Of a stretch of DNA of 64,000 nucleotides, positions 41,351 to 49,411 are shown in pieces. Position numbers and translations under genes: made by a program. The stretch's first letter is position 1. The number at the start of each line of letters is the position of its first letter. Where the stretch lies: positions 1-64,000 of IMG/VR virus record IMGVR_UViG_3300028840_006257; one strand, 5' to 3'. The notes below the pieces were generated by a model, which ran no database searches, had not been told where the DNA came from, and saw only the letters and a program-made list of their open reading frames with translations. Source of the stretch: a virus.

Positions 41351-42016
41351 ATGCCATTCATCATCATGCGGAGGAGCGACATCCCGAACGGGGTCCTGCA
41401 GGTCGACGACCTCAAGCCGAACGACTCGCAGCGTAACTACACGCTAGATCCCCCGGGCCAGAGTGGGTACGTCCGAAACATCCCCGCGAACGAGACCGTC
41501 GTCACGGTCGGCGCGGGACCGATCCTCATCCTGCGCGACGTCTGCGGGCTCGCAGGCTACCTGATCGACAACGTGGAGGACAGCGCCGGGACGGCCATCA
41601 CGGCAGCGGTCGCCAACACCGCGTCGGCGGCGATCATAGTCCGGGCGCAGGCGGCCCTCACGGTTCAGACGGCCGACGTCGACGCGGAGCTCGTCGCCGC
41701 CGGTGCAGGGGCCGGCACGGGCCTCACGGCTGGCAACTCGACCGGTCTCCTCGTGGAGTTGCTGAGCCTGCTCTCCGGCGCGGTGTACGACCTTCCGGCG
41801 GGCAGCGAGGTCGAGACGGCGGCCAACCTCTTCAACGCGACCCGCATGGGTTCGTTCGTGACGACGCCCGGAGTCAAGTTCGTTCGACAGACGGGCGCCT
41901 TCAACGTCTCGAACGGCGCGGGGGACCTGTTCAGGTACAAGCAGGCGAACTTCGAGTACGCCGGCGTGCTTGGCCCCGCCATCACGGTCTACAGCAACAC
42001 GGGCGCCATCCTGTAA
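41351..42016 (+). CDS. Virion structural protein, paralog family B member 1
   Basis: A 221-residue protein with GGAGGAG before the ATG. The N-terminal signature FIIMRRSDIPNGVLQVDDLK, then a Gln-rich GQSGYV motif, repeats in the next two genes. An Ala/Thr-rich helical centre (ANTASAAIIVRAQAALTVQ) and a C-terminal beta segment (YAGVLGPAITVYSNTG) follow. Position next to other structural genes and family resemblance suggest a capsid- or tail-associated component, possibly a major one. Confidence 0.65.
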   Translation: MPFIIMRRSDIPNGVLQVDDLKPNDSQRNYTLDPPGQSGYVRNIPANETVVTVGAGPILILRDVCGLAGYLIDNVEDSAGTAITAAVANTASAAIIVRAQAALTVQTADVDAELVAAGAGAGTGLTAGNSTGLLVELLSLLSGAVYDLPAGSEVETAANLFNATRMGSFVTTPGVKFVRQTGAFNVSNGAGDLFRYKQANFEYAGVLGPAITVYSNTGAIL

Positions 42017-42028
42017 GGAGGTCTGAAG

Positions 42029-43111
42029 ATGCCGTACATCATCATGAAGCGGAACGACATTCCCGACGGGACGCTCCAGGTCACCGACCTCGAGCCCAAC
42101 ACCTCGCAGCGGAACCTCACGCTGGAGCCCGTGGGTCAGACGGGTTACGTCAACGCGGTCCAGAACGACACCGTGGTGCTGTACCAGCCGGGCGGCGGCG
42201 GGACCCCGATCCTGCTCCGCTGGCAGGCGAGGGGGCTCGGCGCGTGGCTCGGGACCAACGTGAACGACGGGACCGGCGTCCAGGCTCAGGGGGTGATGAC
42301 TCCGACGCTCACGCCGCTGACCGGAATCGGCGCCCCGTACTTCACGATCAACGGGGTCATCTTCGTGGCGACGGCCGGTCCCATCCCCCCCGGAATCCCG
42401 GGGGTGTTCGACGCCACGCTTCCGCTAGGGCCCGGTCCCGGCACCATGAGCTGGGACATCGCCACGCGGATCAACGACGTCGTCAACGGGCTGAACGGCA
42501 TCGTCGTCGCCACGCCGGACGTGCCCGCACCCGGCGACGTCCTGGTTCAGGCCGTGGCCGTCGGCACCGCCGGCAACGCCATCGACTTCACGGACGTGTC
42601 TCCGTTCCCCGGCGAGATCGCGATGGTGCCTCCGGGCGGGTTCCTGGCCGGGGGCGCGGACGCCGACTCGCTCACGGCCGCGGAGATCAACACGAGCTCG
42701 GCGGCCATCCTGGCCCTGTACGCGTACGGAAACCTCACGGCCGGCGCGGGAGTCCTCAACCTGGCGGCCATCAACGGCGCGATGGCGGCGGGCGCCATCA
42801 CGGCGGCACAGCTGCCCGAGGTGCTCGACATCCTGGCAGGTCGTCGCTACGTCTGTCCCAAGGACGTGCAGATCGACGCGGACGGGACCACGTTCGACGT
42901 GCAGCCCCCCGTCGGCACCACGGGCGGCCCGGGCTTCGTGGCCGGGAGCTATCGCAACCTGTTCGCGAACGACGGCCTTCCGCTCTCGTTCGTCGTCGGC
43001 CAGCTTGCCCAATTCCGCGACAACGGCTTCATCTACCGCGGCGTCGCGGGCAACCCGAACGGAGAGGCCGTGGTCGTCTACAACGACGACGGAACCCTGT
43101 ACACCCCGTAA
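42029..43111 (+). CDS. Virion structural protein, paralog family B member 2 with inserted domain
   Basis: A 360-residue paralog (YIIMKRNDIPDGTLQVTDLE, TSQRNLTLEPVGQTGYV). Relative to its neighbours it has about 130 extra residues near positions 100-210: YFTINGVIFVATAG, DIATRINDVVNGLNGIVV, VAVGTAGNAIDFTD. This resembles surface-decoration or flagellin-like insertion domains. The C-terminal region again ends in a beta strand (YRGVAGNPNGEAVVVYNDDG). Virion structural role inferred. Confidence 0.65.
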   Translation: MPYIIMKRNDIPDGTLQVTDLEPNTSQRNLTLEPVGQTGYVNAVQNDTVVLYQPGGGGTPILLRWQARGLGAWLGTNVNDGTGVQAQGVMTPTLTPLTGIGAPYFTINGVIFVATAGPIPPGIPGVFDATLPLGPGPGTMSWDIATRINDVVNGLNGIVVATPDVPAPGDVLVQAVAVGTAGNAIDFTDVSPFPGEIAMVPPGGFLAGGADADSLTAAEINTSSAAILALYAYGNLTAGAGVLNLAAINGAMAAGAITAAQLPEVLDILAGRRYVCPKDVQIDADGTTFDVQPPVGTTGGPGFVAGSYRNLFANDGLPLSFVVGQLAQFRDNGFIYRGVAGNPNGEAVVVYNDDGTLYTP

Positions 43112-43123
43112 GGAGATCAGGAA

Positions 43124-43804
43124 ATGGCTGAAGTTTTCCTCATCATGCGCCGCACGGACATCCCCGACGGGGTACTCCAGGTGGTGGACCTCTGGCCCAA
43201 CACGTCGAGCAAGAACTACATCTACCCGCCGGGCCTCGGCCAGACGGGATACGTTCACAACATCCCGACGCCGGTCATCGCGGGCAGCGTGGCCGCGGGT
43301 CCGCCGGTCGCCGCGACGGCGGATCTGACCGGAGTCGCGGCCTACCTGATCGGCAACATCGACACCACCGCCGGTGCGGGGAGTCCCCCGTTCACGGGGG
43401 CCCAGGCCGCCGCGGCCGCCGCGGGTCTGGTCGCCATCGCCCAGGCGGGAACCGTTCTCAATCTGGCGGCCGTGGACGCCGTCCTGGCGGCCGTCGTCGC
43501 GGGCACCTCCCTGACCGGTGGTGGCTCGACGGGCGTCCTCACGGAGCTCCTGAGCGTCATGGCGGGTGCCGGGTACGAGATCACGAGTGGCACCGCGATC
43601 TCGGACGGGGCCGGAAACTTCGCCGGTCGCGTGGGCGCCTTCGTGCCGGGCGTCTACAAGCAGCTCTACGACACCGGGTACTTCCTGCTCTCGAGCTGGA
43701 ACGGGAACATCTCGCTGATGGAAGGCCCGAACTTCACCTACGGCGGAGTCACGGGAGCGGCGATCACGACCTACTCCGCCACCGGCACCATCGTCGTGCC
43801 GTAG
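43124..43804 (+). CDS. Virion structural protein, paralog family B member 3
   Basis: A 226-residue paralog (FLIMRRTDIPDGVLQVVDLW, YPPGLGQTGYVHNIPTPVI) without the insertion of its neighbour. It has an Ala-rich helical centre (AQAAAAAAGLVAIAQAGTVL) and a C-terminal strand region (FTYGGVTGAAITTYSATG). Followed by a strong hairpin, so it likely ends a transcription unit that starts at 41351. Confidence 0.65.
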   Translation: MAEVFLIMRRTDIPDGVLQVVDLWPNTSSKNYIYPPGLGQTGYVHNIPTPVIAGSVAAGPPVAATADLTGVAAYLIGNIDTTAGAGSPPFTGAQAAAAAAGLVAIAQAGTVLNLAAVDAVLAAVVAGTSLTGGGSTGVLTELLSVMAGAGYEITSGTAISDGAGNFAGRVGAFVPGVYKQLYDTGYFLLSSWNGNISLMEGPNFTYGGVTGAAITTYSATGTIVVP

Positions 43805-44683: not shown

Positions 44684-45475
44684 GTGTCGGTCTCGTTCAA
44701 CGTCGGCCAGGAGCTCGGCCGGAACGACCTCTCCATCTTCCTCGTGGACGAGTTCGGCGTTCCGGTGAACGCCGCCGAGATCAGCTTCGCCATCTACTTC
44801 GTGGACAAGAGCTCGGGTCCGCCGGGCGTCGAGGTGCTGATCCCCCCGCTCGAGCGAACTCCCGTGAACCCGGCCGTCGGGGAGTACTACGCTGCCGTTC
44901 TCGTCCCTCCCGGGGCCTCTCCCGGTGACTACCGGATACGCTGGAGCTTCAGGAGGACCCTCGCGGACGAGATCCAGGAGGTCGTGCAGGAGTTCGGGGT
45001 GAGCGATCCCTCCGCCTGCACGGACGGGCAGCCGCTCTTCTCGGCCTGCGTGGCGAGCCTGGTGGACAAGTTCAGGTACGCCGTCCGAGACGCGAACCCG
45101 GACCGCAACTACCACTTCCGGCCCCCCGAGCAGGAGGGAGTCGTCAAGAAGTACAACCGGGTCTTCGGCTACATCTGGGAGGACCACGAGATCGTGGTCT
45201 TCCTTGAGATGTCCCTCGACTGGTTCAACTCTCTTCCGCCCGAGACGGCCGAGATCAGCACCCTCGACATGCTGTGTGCGCGCAAGCCCAACTGGCGCAC
45301 CTTCATCATCTGGGGGGCCATCGTCCACGCCATGTTCGCGTTGGCGGCGAATTGGGTCGCCGACGAATTCTCCGTGGACGGCGAGACTCTCGTACGCGTA
45401 CACTTGCCGGAGGGGGGCACGTGTGAGCTTCCGATTTCCGAACTCTACGAGATCTGTGTAGAGGATGCTGACTAA
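44684..45475 (+). CDS. Phage structural protein N-half carrying the N-terminal part of a split intein
   Basis: A 263-residue protein, GTG start. Residues 1-229 are the N-extein: strand-rich first part (NVGQELGRNDLSIFLVDEFG), then helical phage part (DKFRYAVRDANPDRNYHFRP, WEDHEIVVFLEMSLDWFNSL, WGAIVHAMFALAANW). Residues 230-263 are the N-intein, beginning SVDGETLVRV (block A, Ser at position 1) and ending ELYEICVEDAD. The mature protein is predicted to be trans-spliced to the C-extein from 46820 to give about 302 residues. A neck or head-tail role is plausible from the family but not proved. It overlaps the endonuclease gene. Confidence 0.75.
   Translation: MSVSFNVGQELGRNDLSIFLVDEFGVPVNAAEISFAIYFVDKSSGPPGVEVLIPPLERTPVNPAVGEYYAAVLVPPGASPGDYRIRWSFRRTLADEIQEVVQEFGVSDPSACTDGQPLFSACVASLVDKFRYAVRDANPDRNYHFRPPEQEGVVKKYNRVFGYIWEDHEIVVFLEMSLDWFNSLPPETAEISTLDMLCARKPNWRTFIIWGAIVHAMFALAANWVADEFSVDGETLVRVHLPEGGTCELPISELYEICVEDAD
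45371..45472 (+). other. N-terminal half of atypically split intein (34 residues)
   Basis: SVDGETLVRV, then LPEGG and PISELY, align by eye with the block A of very short N-inteins such as that of AceL-TerL, which also starts xVxGxTxV and ends xIxxLY. Residue 1 is Ser rather than the usual Cys. The half ends at the ORF stop. Confidence 0.75.
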
Positions 45476-46418
45476 GCGACAGGTTCTTCAAGAGTACGGC
45501 TTCAACGCGAAGACGTTCGACGCGTTGATCGAGACCGGCATCGTAAAGGTCGTTGTGCGCCCAGGAAAACGGAAAACCGTCTTCGTCCCGAAGGCGAGCT
45601 TAGACAGTCTCCTTGAGGGTGAGCACTATGTCGTGTGTCGGTGTTGTGGTTCCCGTCAGGCACAGATCTCGACCAAACACCTACGGTCTTGTGCTGGCGT
45701 TTCCCTTCAAGAATATCGTGAAAAGTACCCGGACGCGTTTCTTATGGCTCGTTGGACGGCTAGGAGGCGGTGCAAGACTCCGGTACAGCGCGCGGCGCAA
45801 AGCGAGAAACTGAAGGCTAGATTCACGACCAAGGTCGGAGAGGAGACGAGGCGCGTCATCTCCGAAGCGTCGAAGCGTATGCACGAGAAGGGGTACCGAG
45901 ACCGTGCCACCGTGCATCTAAAATCTCTGAACCAGTCTCCCGAGATGAGGGAGATGCACAGGACACACACTCAGGCGCGCTGGAATCAGGGAACCTTACG
46001 AGAGACGGTGACCTCGTGGCATGCCGAGAACCGTGAGCGATCCCTGGCTTCAATCGCCCATGCCCGTAGACATCTCCAAAGGATAAGCAGGCCTCACCGA
46101 AAGATGAAGGCGGCGATGAAGGAGGCGGGCTTGCAGGAGTTCCAGACGGAGTACCCGGTCGCCTGGTATTCCATCGACGAGGCAATGCCCGGTCTGCGTC
46201 TCGCTGTCGAAGTGGACGGTTGTTACTGGCACGGGTGTGAAAGTTGTGGGATGCCTGGGACGTCTCGGATTCGTCGCATTGACAAGTCCAAGCAGACTTA
46301 CCTGGAAAACCGAGGGTGGACGGTGCTCAGATTCCCGGAACACCGGATCAACCGGGATGTCCAGGGTTGCGTCGCGGAGTTGTTGACCATCGTGAATGAG
46401 ATGGGAGGGCCGTCGTGA
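45465..46418 (+). CDS. Vsr-like/EDxHD homing endonuclease
   Basis: A 317-residue protein whose ATG overlaps the N-intein ORF. The N-terminus looks like an HTH (KRQVLQEYGFNAKTFDALIE), then CRCCGSRQAQISTKHLRSC may bind zinc. The C-terminal nuclease core is LRLAVEVDGCYWHGCESCG, then RRIDKSKQTYLENRGWTVLR and EHRIN, the Vsr-like arrangement (E/D...DGxxWHG, later H). It likely cuts intein-free copies of the host gene so the split intein spreads by repair. The stop overlaps the GTG of the C-intein ORF. Confidence 0.85.
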   Translation: MLTKRQVLQEYGFNAKTFDALIETGIVKVVVRPGKRKTVFVPKASLDSLLEGEHYVVCRCCGSRQAQISTKHLRSCAGVSLQEYREKYPDAFLMARWTARRRCKTPVQRAAQSEKLKARFTTKVGEETRRVISEASKRMHEKGYRDRATVHLKSLNQSPEMREMHRTHTQARWNQGTLRETVTSWHAENRERSLASIAHARRHLQRISRPHRKMKAAMKEAGLQEFQTEYPVAWYSIDEAMPGLRLAVEVDGCYWHGCESCGMPGTSRIRRIDKSKQTYLENRGWTVLRFPEHRINRDVQGCVAELLTIVNEMGGPS

Positions 46419-46819
46419 TCGAAAACGACATACGTCGCGCCATCAGGGAGGCATACAGGGCTGGCACCCTTGCGGTGGAAGCGGTGGAACCGGACTCTGG
46501 TCGCGTGGTTCGACGGCCACTGGAGAAAGTGATGCGCCACGACGTGCGTCACAAGCGGGCTTTTCGCGTGGCTACCGAGAGGGGAGACGTCATCGCGACG
46601 GAGGACCACTCCTTGTTCCTTCGGGCCGAAAATGGCATCAGAGAAGTCCAGACGAGCCACCTCGTGGCCGGAGACCGGATTGTCGCTGTCGCAGACGGTG
46701 ATGTGGTGGGGTTGGAAGTTGTTCACATCGAGGAGGTTGATACGCGGCAGCACATGTATGATCTGTCGGTTCCTGGACCGGAGAATTTCGTGATCGCGAA
46801 CGGAATAGTGGCGCACAAC
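46415..46819 (+). other. C-terminal half of atypically split intein (135 residues)
   Basis: The long C-half carries blocks B, F and G. The split falls between blocks A and B, so this is an S1-type split (short N, long C), not the common split near block B/F. Confidence 0.75.
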
Positions 46820-47041
46820 TCGTATAGCATCGGAGGAATCAGCCTCGATCTCGAGCGGTCGTCGAAGTACGAGAGCCTCAAGTCCAACGCCGAGGGACAG
46901 CTCGACAAGGCTGCCGAGGCCAAGGCGCGGACCGTGAAGTTCATCCGCGGTCTACAGCAGCCGAAGTTTGGATTCGGCGTGAGGTCGTCCTTCGGCCCCC
47001 AGGTGGGTCGAGGGGTTTTGTCGCCCCGCTCGTTCGTTTAG
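46415..47041 (+). CDS. C-intein fused to C-extein of the phage structural protein
   Basis: A 208-residue ORF, GTG start in a GTGA overlap. Residues 1-135 are the C-intein: block B TERGDVIATEDHSLF (TxxH), block F HMYDLSVPGPENFV, and block G VAHN, with the penultimate His and terminal Asn. The +1 residue is Ser. Residues 136-208 are the C-extein (SYSIGGISLDLERSSKYESL, RTVKFIRGLQQPKFGFGVRS). Block A is absent here, as expected if it lies on the 45371-45472 piece. Confidence 0.8.
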   Translation: MIENDIRRAIREAYRAGTLAVEAVEPDSGRVVRRPLEKVMRHDVRHKRAFRVATERGDVIATEDHSLFLRAENGIREVQTSHLVAGDRIVAVADGDVVGLEVVHIEEVDTRQHMYDLSVPGPENFVIANGIVAHNSYSIGGISLDLERSSKYESLKSNAEGQLDKAAEAKARTVKFIRGLQQPKFGFGVRSSFGPQVGRGVLSPRSFV

Positions 47042-47087: not shown

Positions 47088-47093
47088 TTACAT
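47088..47093 (+). promoter_or_regulatory. -10-like TTACAT, leaderless arrangement
   Basis: TTACAT lies 8 nt before GTG 47102, and TTGATT occurs at 47061-47066, 21 nt further up. No Shine-Dalgarno is seen. This could give independent expression of the endonuclease gene. Confidence 0.35.
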
Positions 47094-47101
47094 TGTTACG
47101 A

Positions 47102-49411
47102 GTGACCGAGATTCGCTGTCCCGCGTGTCAGAAGCTCCTCTCGTCTCCCAAGGCCGTCCCCAAGCACACGAACGGCTGCCCAAAGTGGGACGAGGTGATC
47201 GGTGTGCCGCCGTCAGAGTTCGACTTCGACAGGCACTTCCGGCGGGGTCTCTGGGCTCCTGAGAAGGTCGAGAACGAGGACTACGTCCGTTGCCTGCTCT
47301 GTGCCGCCGAGGGCGCAGAGGTCCGCGTGAAGCGTCTGAGCGACCACCTCAAGCGCGTGCACGACGGCATGGAGCGCAGGGGGTACGAGGAGCGGTTCCC
47401 CCGAGCCCCGGTCGTCGCCCGTTCGTCGGGGGCAAAGCGGAAAGAGACGACCCGACGGAAGTACGGCGTGGACAACGTAGGGCAGAGCGATGGGGTCAAG
47501 GAGAAGACGCGCCGGGCTGCCCGAGAGAAGTACGGGGTCGATCACCACCTCCAGGCCGAGGAGGTGAAGAAGCGTCGGGCCGAGACGAACCTTGAGCGCT
47601 ACGGGGCCGAGAATGTGTTCAGGGCGGAAGGTGTGAAGGAGAAGATCCGCACATCGATGCTCGAGCGTCACGGGGCCGAGAATCCTCAGCGGGTTCCCGA
47701 GATTCGGCAACGCACGCGGCGGACCATGTTGGAGCGGTACGGGGCCGTCTCGTTCCTCCAGTCCGCAGCTTGGCACGCCGCGCTGGCGCGTGCTCGGGGA
47801 GAGCGCGAAAAGGCCCGGAGAGAGGGGTTGATCGCCTCGGGCCGCTACGAGGTCTGTCCCCACTGCGACGAGGTGTTCACCAAGGTCACGAGCCGTCACA
47901 AGGCCGTCTGCCAGGGTTGGCCCGACACGGAGGACCCGGAGCCGTGCCTGTGCGGACACGAGAGTACGAGCCTGACGCAGATGAAGCGCCATCGTCAGGT
48001 GTGCGTGGTGTGGCAGACGAGGGACGCGGACGCGGTGGCCCGTGCCCGTCGTGTTCGGACGATGCGGGAGCGTCACGGCGTGGAGAACCCGATGCAGTCG
48101 GAGGAGTTCCGTGCCCGGGCGGCGCGGACGAACCTCGAACGGTACGGGGCCGAGAGCGTGTTCGCCCGTGAGTCCAGCAAGTTCGACGAGCTGCAGGCGT
48201 CGCTCGAGGGCAAGCGCCCGGTGCTGCGTGGTGAGGACAACCCGTTCTCGAGACCCGAGGTCCAGGAGAAGATCCGGGAGACGATGCGCGAGCGCCACGG
48301 GGCCGAGAATCCTCAGCAGGTTCCCGAGATCCGTGCCCGGACGAGGGCGACCAACCTCGAGCGGTGCGGGCACGAGGAGACGCTGGCGTCTCCCGAGATT
48401 CGCGAGCGCATCGCGGCGACGAACGAGGAGCGCTACGGAGGACCCGCGCCGTCGTGCTCTCCCGAGGTGGTCGAGCGGCAGCGTCGGACGAACCTGGAGC
48501 GCTACGGGGTCCCGTGGACGGCGATGGACCCCGAGGTGCGACGCAAGCAGCTCGAGACGATGGAGGCGAGATACGGTTCGCACTTCTTCGCCTCCGGGGA
48601 GGGCAAGCGTCGCGTGGTCGAGGGCATGCAGGCCAAGTACGGCGTGGACTACTACGCGCAGGTCGAAGGGTTCTGGGAGCAGCAGGTCGAGCGGTTCGTG
48701 GAGAAGTACGGGGTCACGCATCCGCTCCAGCTCGCGGAGTTCTTGGACAAGCGCCGGGAGACCTGCCAGGAGCGCTACGGTGTGGACAACCCGCTCCAGA
48801 GCCCGGAGATCATGGCGAAGGTCGTGGCCACCTGTTTGGATAGGTATGGGGCCCCGACAGCTCAAGAGGCACCGCAGGTCAGAGAGAAGACCATCCGCAC
48901 CTGTCTTGCCAAGGTCGGCAAGACGTTCCCGGAGTACGAGATTCCCGCATCCTCCGAGGAGAACCTGATCGAGCGCTACGGCGTCACGCATCCCCAGAGC
49001 GACCGAGACTACGCATCCTACTTCCTGCACCAGATGGGCGAGTCCACGAAGTTCGGCCCGAACGGCCTCGAGCGTCGCGTGGCCAAGTTGGAACCTCGGC
49101 TCGTGTACACGGGCAATCGGAGGTTCTGGCGGTGGCTCCCGAAACTCGGTCACCACAAGAACCCCGACTTCATCCTGCCGGGACCCGATCCCGGTAAGCC
49201 GAAGAAGGGCGTGACGAGGGTCGTCGAGGCGTTCGGCGACTTCTGGCACTCGCGGATGTTCACGGGAAGGGCGCCGTTCGACCACGAGCAGGAGCTCGTC
49301 GAGGCGTACGCCGAGGTCGGGCTCGAGTGCCTGGTCGTCTGGGAGTCCGAGGTCAAGGAGGATCCCGACGACGTCCGCGAGCGCCTGGCGTCGTTCGTCG
49401 AGGTTCGATGA
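47102..49411 (+). CDS. Giant repeat-type homing endonuclease
   Basis: A 769-residue protein from GTG 47102 (MTEIRCPACQ). It has N-terminal and middle zinc-finger-like CxxC/H motifs (CPACQ, CLLC, CPHCDEVF). It has at least a dozen repeats of about 25-40 residues with the pattern T..E.YG..NP.Q.PE...K, as in DUF7487-type phage nucleases, probably each a small DNA-binding element. The C-terminal nuclease part NPDFILPGPDPGK, VVEAFGDFWHSRMF, AEVGLECLVVWESEV resembles EDxHD/Vsr nucleases (D, E-x-x-GD-x-WH, H). Likely a homing endonuclease that inserted beside the split intein. Confidence 0.8.
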   Translation: MTEIRCPACQKLLSSPKAVPKHTNGCPKWDEVIGVPPSEFDFDRHFRRGLWAPEKVENEDYVRCLLCAAEGAEVRVKRLSDHLKRVHDGMERRGYEERFPRAPVVARSSGAKRKETTRRKYGVDNVGQSDGVKEKTRRAAREKYGVDHHLQAEEVKKRRAETNLERYGAENVFRAEGVKEKIRTSMLERHGAENPQRVPEIRQRTRRTMLERYGAVSFLQSAAWHAALARARGEREKARREGLIASGRYEVCPHCDEVFTKVTSRHKAVCQGWPDTEDPEPCLCGHESTSLTQMKRHRQVCVVWQTRDADAVARARRVRTMRERHGVENPMQSEEFRARAARTNLERYGAESVFARESSKFDELQASLEGKRPVLRGEDNPFSRPEVQEKIRETMRERHGAENPQQVPEIRARTRATNLERCGHEETLASPEIRERIAATNEERYGGPAPSCSPEVVERQRRTNLERYGVPWTAMDPEVRRKQLETMEARYGSHFFASGEGKRRVVEGMQAKYGVDYYAQVEGFWEQQVERFVEKYGVTHPLQLAEFLDKRRETCQERYGVDNPLQSPEIMAKVVATCLDRYGAPTAQEAPQVREKTIRTCLAKVGKTFPEYEIPASSEENLIERYGVTHPQSDRDYASYFLHQMGESTKFGPNGLERRVAKLEPRLVYTGNRRFWRWLPKLGHHKNPDFILPGPDPGKPKKGVTRVVEAFGDFWHSRMFTGRAPFDHEQELVEAYAEVGLECLVVWESEVKEDPDDVRERLASFVEVR

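Follow-up and report, generated by a model that had tools for sequence, protein, structure and literature searches.

Layout of the interrupted gene

Positions 1-64000 of the 213-kb IMG/VR virus record IMGVR_UViG_3300028840_006257, from a large phage and hereafter called the window, contain at 44684-47041 a gene distributed over three open reading frames (ORFs) that lie head to tail, successive ORFs overlapping. The outer ORFs each combine part of a host protein (extein) with part of an intein, while the middle ORF encodes a free-standing nuclease. The identification of this element as a split intein with an intervening EDxHD endonuclease is secure at the level of sequence, and the coordinates and stop/start overlaps (45465-45475 and 46415-46418) given by an earlier sequence-only reading are all correct. 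The features are as follows.

44684-45475, plus strand: N-half ORF, 263 residues, made up of 229 extein residues and the 34-residue SVDGETLVRVHLPEGGTCELPISELYEICVEDAD
44684-45370, plus strand: N-extein, residues 1-229, ending in NWVADEF, delimited by alignment of the joined exteins to intein-free homologues
45371-45472, plus strand: N-intein, 34 residues, with catalytic Ser1 at 45371-45373 and the stop codon at 45473-45475, assigned by an N-region hidden Markov model and by identity to the continuous intein L039b
45465-46418, plus strand: free-standing EDxHD/Vsr-type homing endonuclease gene, 317 residues, assigned by profile matches and invariant residues
46403-46409, plus strand: Shine-Dalgarno-like GGGAGGG, read from the sequence, inside the endonuclease ORF and 5 nucleotides before the GTG start of the C-half
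46415-47041, plus strand: C-half ORF, 208 residues, made up of the 135-residue C-intein (ending NGIVAHN) and 73 extein residues
46415-46819, plus strand: C-intein, 135 residues, assigned by Pfam Intein_splicing, TIGR01443 and alignments
46538-46540, 46607-46609 and 46760-46762: key C-intein residues, respectively the NX His, the His of block B TEDHS and the block F Asp
46814-46816 and 46817-46819: penultimate His and terminal Asn of the C-intein
46820-47041, plus strand: C-extein, 73 residues, beginning with the +1 Ser (SYSIGGISLDLE...), and stop codon, assigned by identity to intein-free homologues

The endonuclease ORF overlaps the end of the N-half by 11 nucleotides and the C-half by 4 nucleotides, GTGA. 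After the terminal His-Asn of the intein, the C-half continues as SYSIGGISL.

The joined exteins form a 302-residue sequence that aligns end to end and without gaps to uninterrupted homologues (47-78% identity), and for the C-extein, compared over C-half residues 129/137-208, identity to intein-free homologues is 84-92%. The continuous homologue that the sequence-only reading had called for is thus at hand, since about 45 uninterrupted homologues run through the extein junction. The same reading had suggested looking for a recognition site at NWVADEF/SYS. The insertion point, designated site b, is right, but the Ser at +1 is not part of the typical empty site: most intein-free homologues read DEF/DYSIGG, and the +1 Ser thus occurs mainly together with the intein.

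The proposal that the host is a phage structural protein gains modest support. PHROG 17327 (head-tail connector) is matched by 9 of 33 homologues, with a best E value of 1e-4, and a homologue in the Tunturiibacter phage Tunturi_5 (29% identity over 94%), which is annotated as a head-tail connector, has minor tail, tail terminator and sheath genes as neighbours. In the window, PHROGs and Pfam scans of the neighbouring virion-region ORFs gave almost no matches.

Two pieces of one intein

The C piece, in which TEDHS, blocks F and G and a terminal VAHN had been noticed, matches Pfam Intein_splicing (E=2.1e-13, above the cut-off) and TIGR01443 (E=4.8e-9). For the N piece, a hidden Markov model was built from the N regions of continuous relatives only and searched against 1121 six-frame ORFs; the window tail was the top match (E=7e-6, with the runner-up at 0.96), which bears out the earlier assignment of block A to these 34 residues. 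The tail aligns with positions 1-29 of continuous inteins, the match starting exactly at the extein junction, and is 50% identical over 26 residues to residues 1-26 of L039b.

Relatives in the same gene were gathered by C-intein profile scans, and 36 representative contigs were dissected together with LR745208, a 485-kb huge-phage genome. Other matches from the profile searches (L141-L146) were set aside as ordinary inteins in other genes. At site b, 19 of the dissected inteins are split, with N pieces of 29-43 residues among the split relatives, and five are continuous ORFs of 159-191 residues. Two of the continuous alleles have close split counterparts: L086b shares about 90% identity with split L080b and L081b, and L094b is 94% identical in its C part to split L099b. 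Since continuous alleles, including these close pairs, occupy the same site, the two pieces belong to one intein. The pairs also offer direct tests of what splitting costs. An AlphaFold2 model of continuous L086b has a HINT fold with a mean predicted local distance difference test score (pLDDT) of 96.4, its best structural matches are inteins, and the position of the break falls in an interhelical loop, at about residues 31-37. The window element thus has the make-up of a class 1 intein, with motifs A, B, F and G and a HINT fold as modelled on the continuous relative, and is naturally split in the atypical N-terminal manner, its short N piece (34 residues, against 135 in the C piece) being encoded by a separate ORF.

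The nucleophiles of the window intein are Ser1 and Ser+1, with His-Asn at its C terminus. A histidine in motif NX, preceded by Arg or Lys, marks Ser1 inteins (PMC10189870), and its presence in the window upholds the earlier reading of Ser at position 1. This histidine occurs in all 24 site-b inteins, which have Ser1, and in none of the 13 homologous inteins of the gene's other insertion site (site a, below), which have Cys1; the preceding residue is Arg or Lys in 22 of the 24. That a single gene carries Cys1 inteins and homologous Ser1 inteins amounts to a natural control for the NX histidine. PolB16 is the sole known natural intein that is both cysteine-less and atypically split, according to a 2026 paper (PMC13014065), although PolB16 itself has non-catalytic cysteines. 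By that measure the window intein and its split relatives are further putative examples of the PolB16 type. The window intein is not strictly free of cysteine, having two non-catalytic Cys in its N piece; L099b is the only intein with none at all.

The locus is thus very probably a fractured head-tail connector-like gene in which the intein pieces trans-splice the exteins and a homing endonuclease gene lies between them. The three overlapping ORFs would make the N-extein with its 34-residue N-intein, the EDxHD/Vsr-type endonuclease, and the 135-residue C-intein with the C-extein. The two intein pieces would bind each other to form the HINT domain, and oxyester chemistry involving Ser1, Ser+1 and the C-terminal Asn would join the exteins in trans into the 302-residue protein. 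The endonuclease would cut intein-free alleles at DEF/DYS, and repair would copy in the intein, the endonuclease gene and the +1 Ser.

Several points weigh against this interpretation. Trans-splicing, DNA cleavage, homing and translational coupling are all predicted, and the Shine-Dalgarno sequence at the endonuclease start is badly spaced. The identity of the host as head-tail connector-like is modestly indicated, by weak profile matches and one annotation; the structure model of the extein is poor (pLDDT 71), and a Foldseek search with it gave no match at E≤0.001. Purifying selection is shown for relatives, whereas between the window and L023, its nearest dissected relative, synonymous divergence (dS) is saturated, and this comparison was not used for that reason.

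The most serious alternative, though an improbable one, is that a decayed, non-splicing intein has broken the gene, leaving the halves as separate subunits. Splicing of the window halves is itself a prediction, and the endonuclease has decayed in several relatives, as such a scenario would have it. However, Ser1, the NX His, the block B His, the block F Asp and the terminal His-Asn are kept in all 24 site-b members, and copies that have lost the endonuclease (L004, L058, L080a) retain intact intein pieces. In relatives, the ratio of non-synonymous to synonymous substitution (dN/dS, by the Nei-Gojobori method, and rough where dS is high) lies at 0.05-0.27 across N pieces, C pieces and a single nuclease pair, and among site-b relatives at 0.05-0.24 with the nuclease included; for both intein pieces it is well under 1. 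Moreover, the stretch of the extein protein that is most strongly conserved contains both the break and the C-extein.

It is hardly credible that the N-half ends in an unrelated C-terminal extension of 34 residues and that the C piece stands alone as a C-cleaving HINT domain. Searched by itself against general libraries, the short tail matches nothing, yet it corresponds to the start of continuous inteins from the exact junction onwards, and this idea is largely refuted by the continuous alleles, which hold both parts in one ORF. Joining of the halves at the level of RNA or translation, by an intron, frameshift or bypassing and without protein splicing, might be suggested by the overlapping starts and stops but is just as implausible, as about 940 nucleotides with a conserved endonuclease separate the halves, both pieces are intein-like in protein sequence, and an intein spanning the junction explains everything.

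Two insertion sites and a proposed cycle of fracture

The gene is a two-site intein hotspot. Among the best 80 of 253 matches to the uninterrupted C-extein, a set with a few near-duplicates, 25 carry an intein, 54 have none and one is unclear; thus intein-free alleles are the majority, and an intein is present in about one close homologue in three. Site a follows extein residue 137-138 (LRD[NQ]/[SC]PD) and is occupied in LR745208. All 13 inteins there have Cys1, their N pieces are 29-37 residues long, and two (L059 and L120) are continuous. In the tree, the inteins of sites a and b form separate clades (support 100/100).

Both sites are split in six contigs (L057, L058, L076, L078, L080 and L085), and in two others (L086 and L094) site a is split and site b carries a continuous intein. 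In the six doubly split contigs the middle polypeptide starts with a C-intein and ends with an N-intein. With both sites split, two trans-splicing events would be needed and three polypeptides would have to be joined. The literature searched contained only engineered cases of doubly split genes, but older key papers fall outside it, so this is an absence of evidence.

The nucleases differ between the sites, being EDxHD/Vsr-like at b and TnsA-like or HNH at a, where TnsA-like PF08722 was found in four of five scanned members (above cut-off, or in one case below it) and HNH in L003. The window endonuclease has a ROS/MucR-like zinc finger region, middle repeats and a C-terminal nuclease domain with matches to DUF559 (5e-8), MTES_1575 (3e-6) and Vsr (0.003). 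A profile of 16 site-b nucleases matches I-Bth0305I (3r3p, 7.6e-5), the exemplar of the EDxHD homing family (PMC3943268), and Vsr (1cw0, 0.008), so that the earlier reading of an intervening Vsr/EDxHD nuclease is vindicated by profile. These nucleases share 34 invariant residues, among them E229, D238, H256 and D273 (16 of 16), which are the likely catalytic set. A different layout is seen at L140:4596-5621, where a single ORF fuses a Vsr-like nuclease domain in frame to a C-intein instead of leaving it free-standing; this contig is binned as an Altiarchaeales metagenome-assembled genome but is probably phage DNA.

In L080a and L058a/b, internal deletion has cut the endonuclease ORFs to about 29-37 codons. 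The resulting mini-ORFs (L058:4512-4601, L058:5354-5464 and L080:3177-3290) still overlap the ORFs on either side or lie directly against them, as if the near-overlapping stops and starts had been retained for translational coupling. Partial endonucleases remain in L126a and L085a, and L004a has a 119-nucleotide remnant.

Fracture may also be reversed. In L086b, AAAGAGGAG/CGTATGATGG marks the point where the N half continues directly into the C half. Its split relatives end their N half with AAAGAGGAGGG, and in them GCAAAGGAGCGTATGATGG precedes the start of the C half; the L086b junction has the appearance of a deletion that joined two repeats resembling ribosome-binding sites. As L086b is nested in a supported split clade (100/100), re-fusion is the simpler reading of the direction of change. 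The tree requires at least seven changes between split and continuous forms, five of them at site b, with several forks poorly resolved.

The residue at b+1 is Asp in 28 of 33 intein-free alleles and Ser or Thr in all dissected carriers, and that at a+1 is Asn in 31 of 34 intein-free alleles and Ser or Cys in carriers. Given this difference, the +1 nucleophile seems to move with the intein, as expected of co-conversion during homing. A Ser in place of Asp at b+1 also occurs in the intein-free alleles L029, L030, L049 and L051 and in L003, L060 and L127, which carry an intein at site a only; these residues may be footprints of lost inteins.

On balance, we lean towards a cycle of fracture at the two sites, in which free-standing endonucleases are acquired and lost by short-N inteins, which remain split in their absence and re-fuse by deletion between ribosome-binding-site-like repeats. 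Some phages would then be doubly split, making one virion protein from three polypeptides by two mutually specific trans-splicing reactions, one with Cys1 and one with Ser1. The origin and persistence of natural split inteins are open questions, and this one gene family holds every stage: intein-free, continuous, split with an endonuclease, split with a decayed endonuclease or none, and doubly split.

Known systems and neighbouring features

Dassa and colleagues reportedly described, in 2009, fractured genes for DNA-metabolism enzymes, in which split inteins occur together with EDxHD/Vsr-like endonucleases. The window gene likewise has a split intein that breaks it in two and, between the halves, a free-standing gene for a Vsr-like endonuclease, and is in this sense a fractured gene. 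It differs in its virion, head-tail connector-like host, in a break after about 34 residues instead of the usual endonuclease position, and in having two sites per gene, with TnsA-like or HNH nucleases at the second and continuous alleles alongside.

The PolB16 OarG split intein (PMC10189870) is likewise naturally split in the atypical way, has a short N piece and shares Ser1/Ser+1 and the NX His. However, its N piece has 15 residues against 34 here, its host is a DNA polymerase, and its block B His is dispensable; it matches the intein profile with an E value of only 0.004. By description, AceL-TerL, GOS-TerL and Cat-TerL (PMC11766414, PMC13014065) also have natural short N pieces (25-37 residues) in phage genes, and GOS-TerL shares Ser1, but, again by description, their host is terminase and the +1 residue of GOS-TerL is Cys. 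The Aes123 PolB1/CL intein (PDB 9hth) resembles the window intein by fold and profile match and is a cysteine-independent Ser1 intein, but its natural split is at the endonuclease position (120 + 39 residues) and its short-N form was engineered. The nuclease domain is shared by profile with I-Bth0305I, which is intron-encoded, and with Vsr, which is a mismatch-repair nuclease. Each element has precedent, while the combination and the two-site series with all its stages are new as far as checked. Site b alone provides no fewer than 19 natural split inteins of the Ser1, short-N kind, against the one counted in the 2026 paper (PMC13014065). This set, which includes the fully cysteine-free L099b, could be useful for protein labelling.

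Directly 3' of the C-half lies a further nuclease gene.

47093-49411, plus strand: free-standing DUF7487 homing-type endonuclease, a 772-residue repeat protein with a nuclease-like C terminus

It matches PF24308 (5e-68) and a PHROG homing endonuclease family (3e-51). This nuclease was rejected as a component of the split-intein system because it also adjoins intein-free alleles (12 of 32 intein-free loci, compared with 18 of 37 intein-bearing loci).

The same virus has four more inteins, which are continuous and bear LAGLIDADG endonucleases (G000 63739-66468 = L136:1240-3969; L137:2722-6870; L138:1153-5421); their hosts are one protein just 3' of the window, an SNF2-type helicase (two) and DNA polymerase A (one). 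Just upstream of the fractured gene, at 41351-43804, are three consecutive paralogous ORFs (41351-42016, 42029-43111 and 43124-43804) that begin MP[FY]IIM[RK]R.DIP.G.LQV.DL, a tandem duplication of a virion-region gene.
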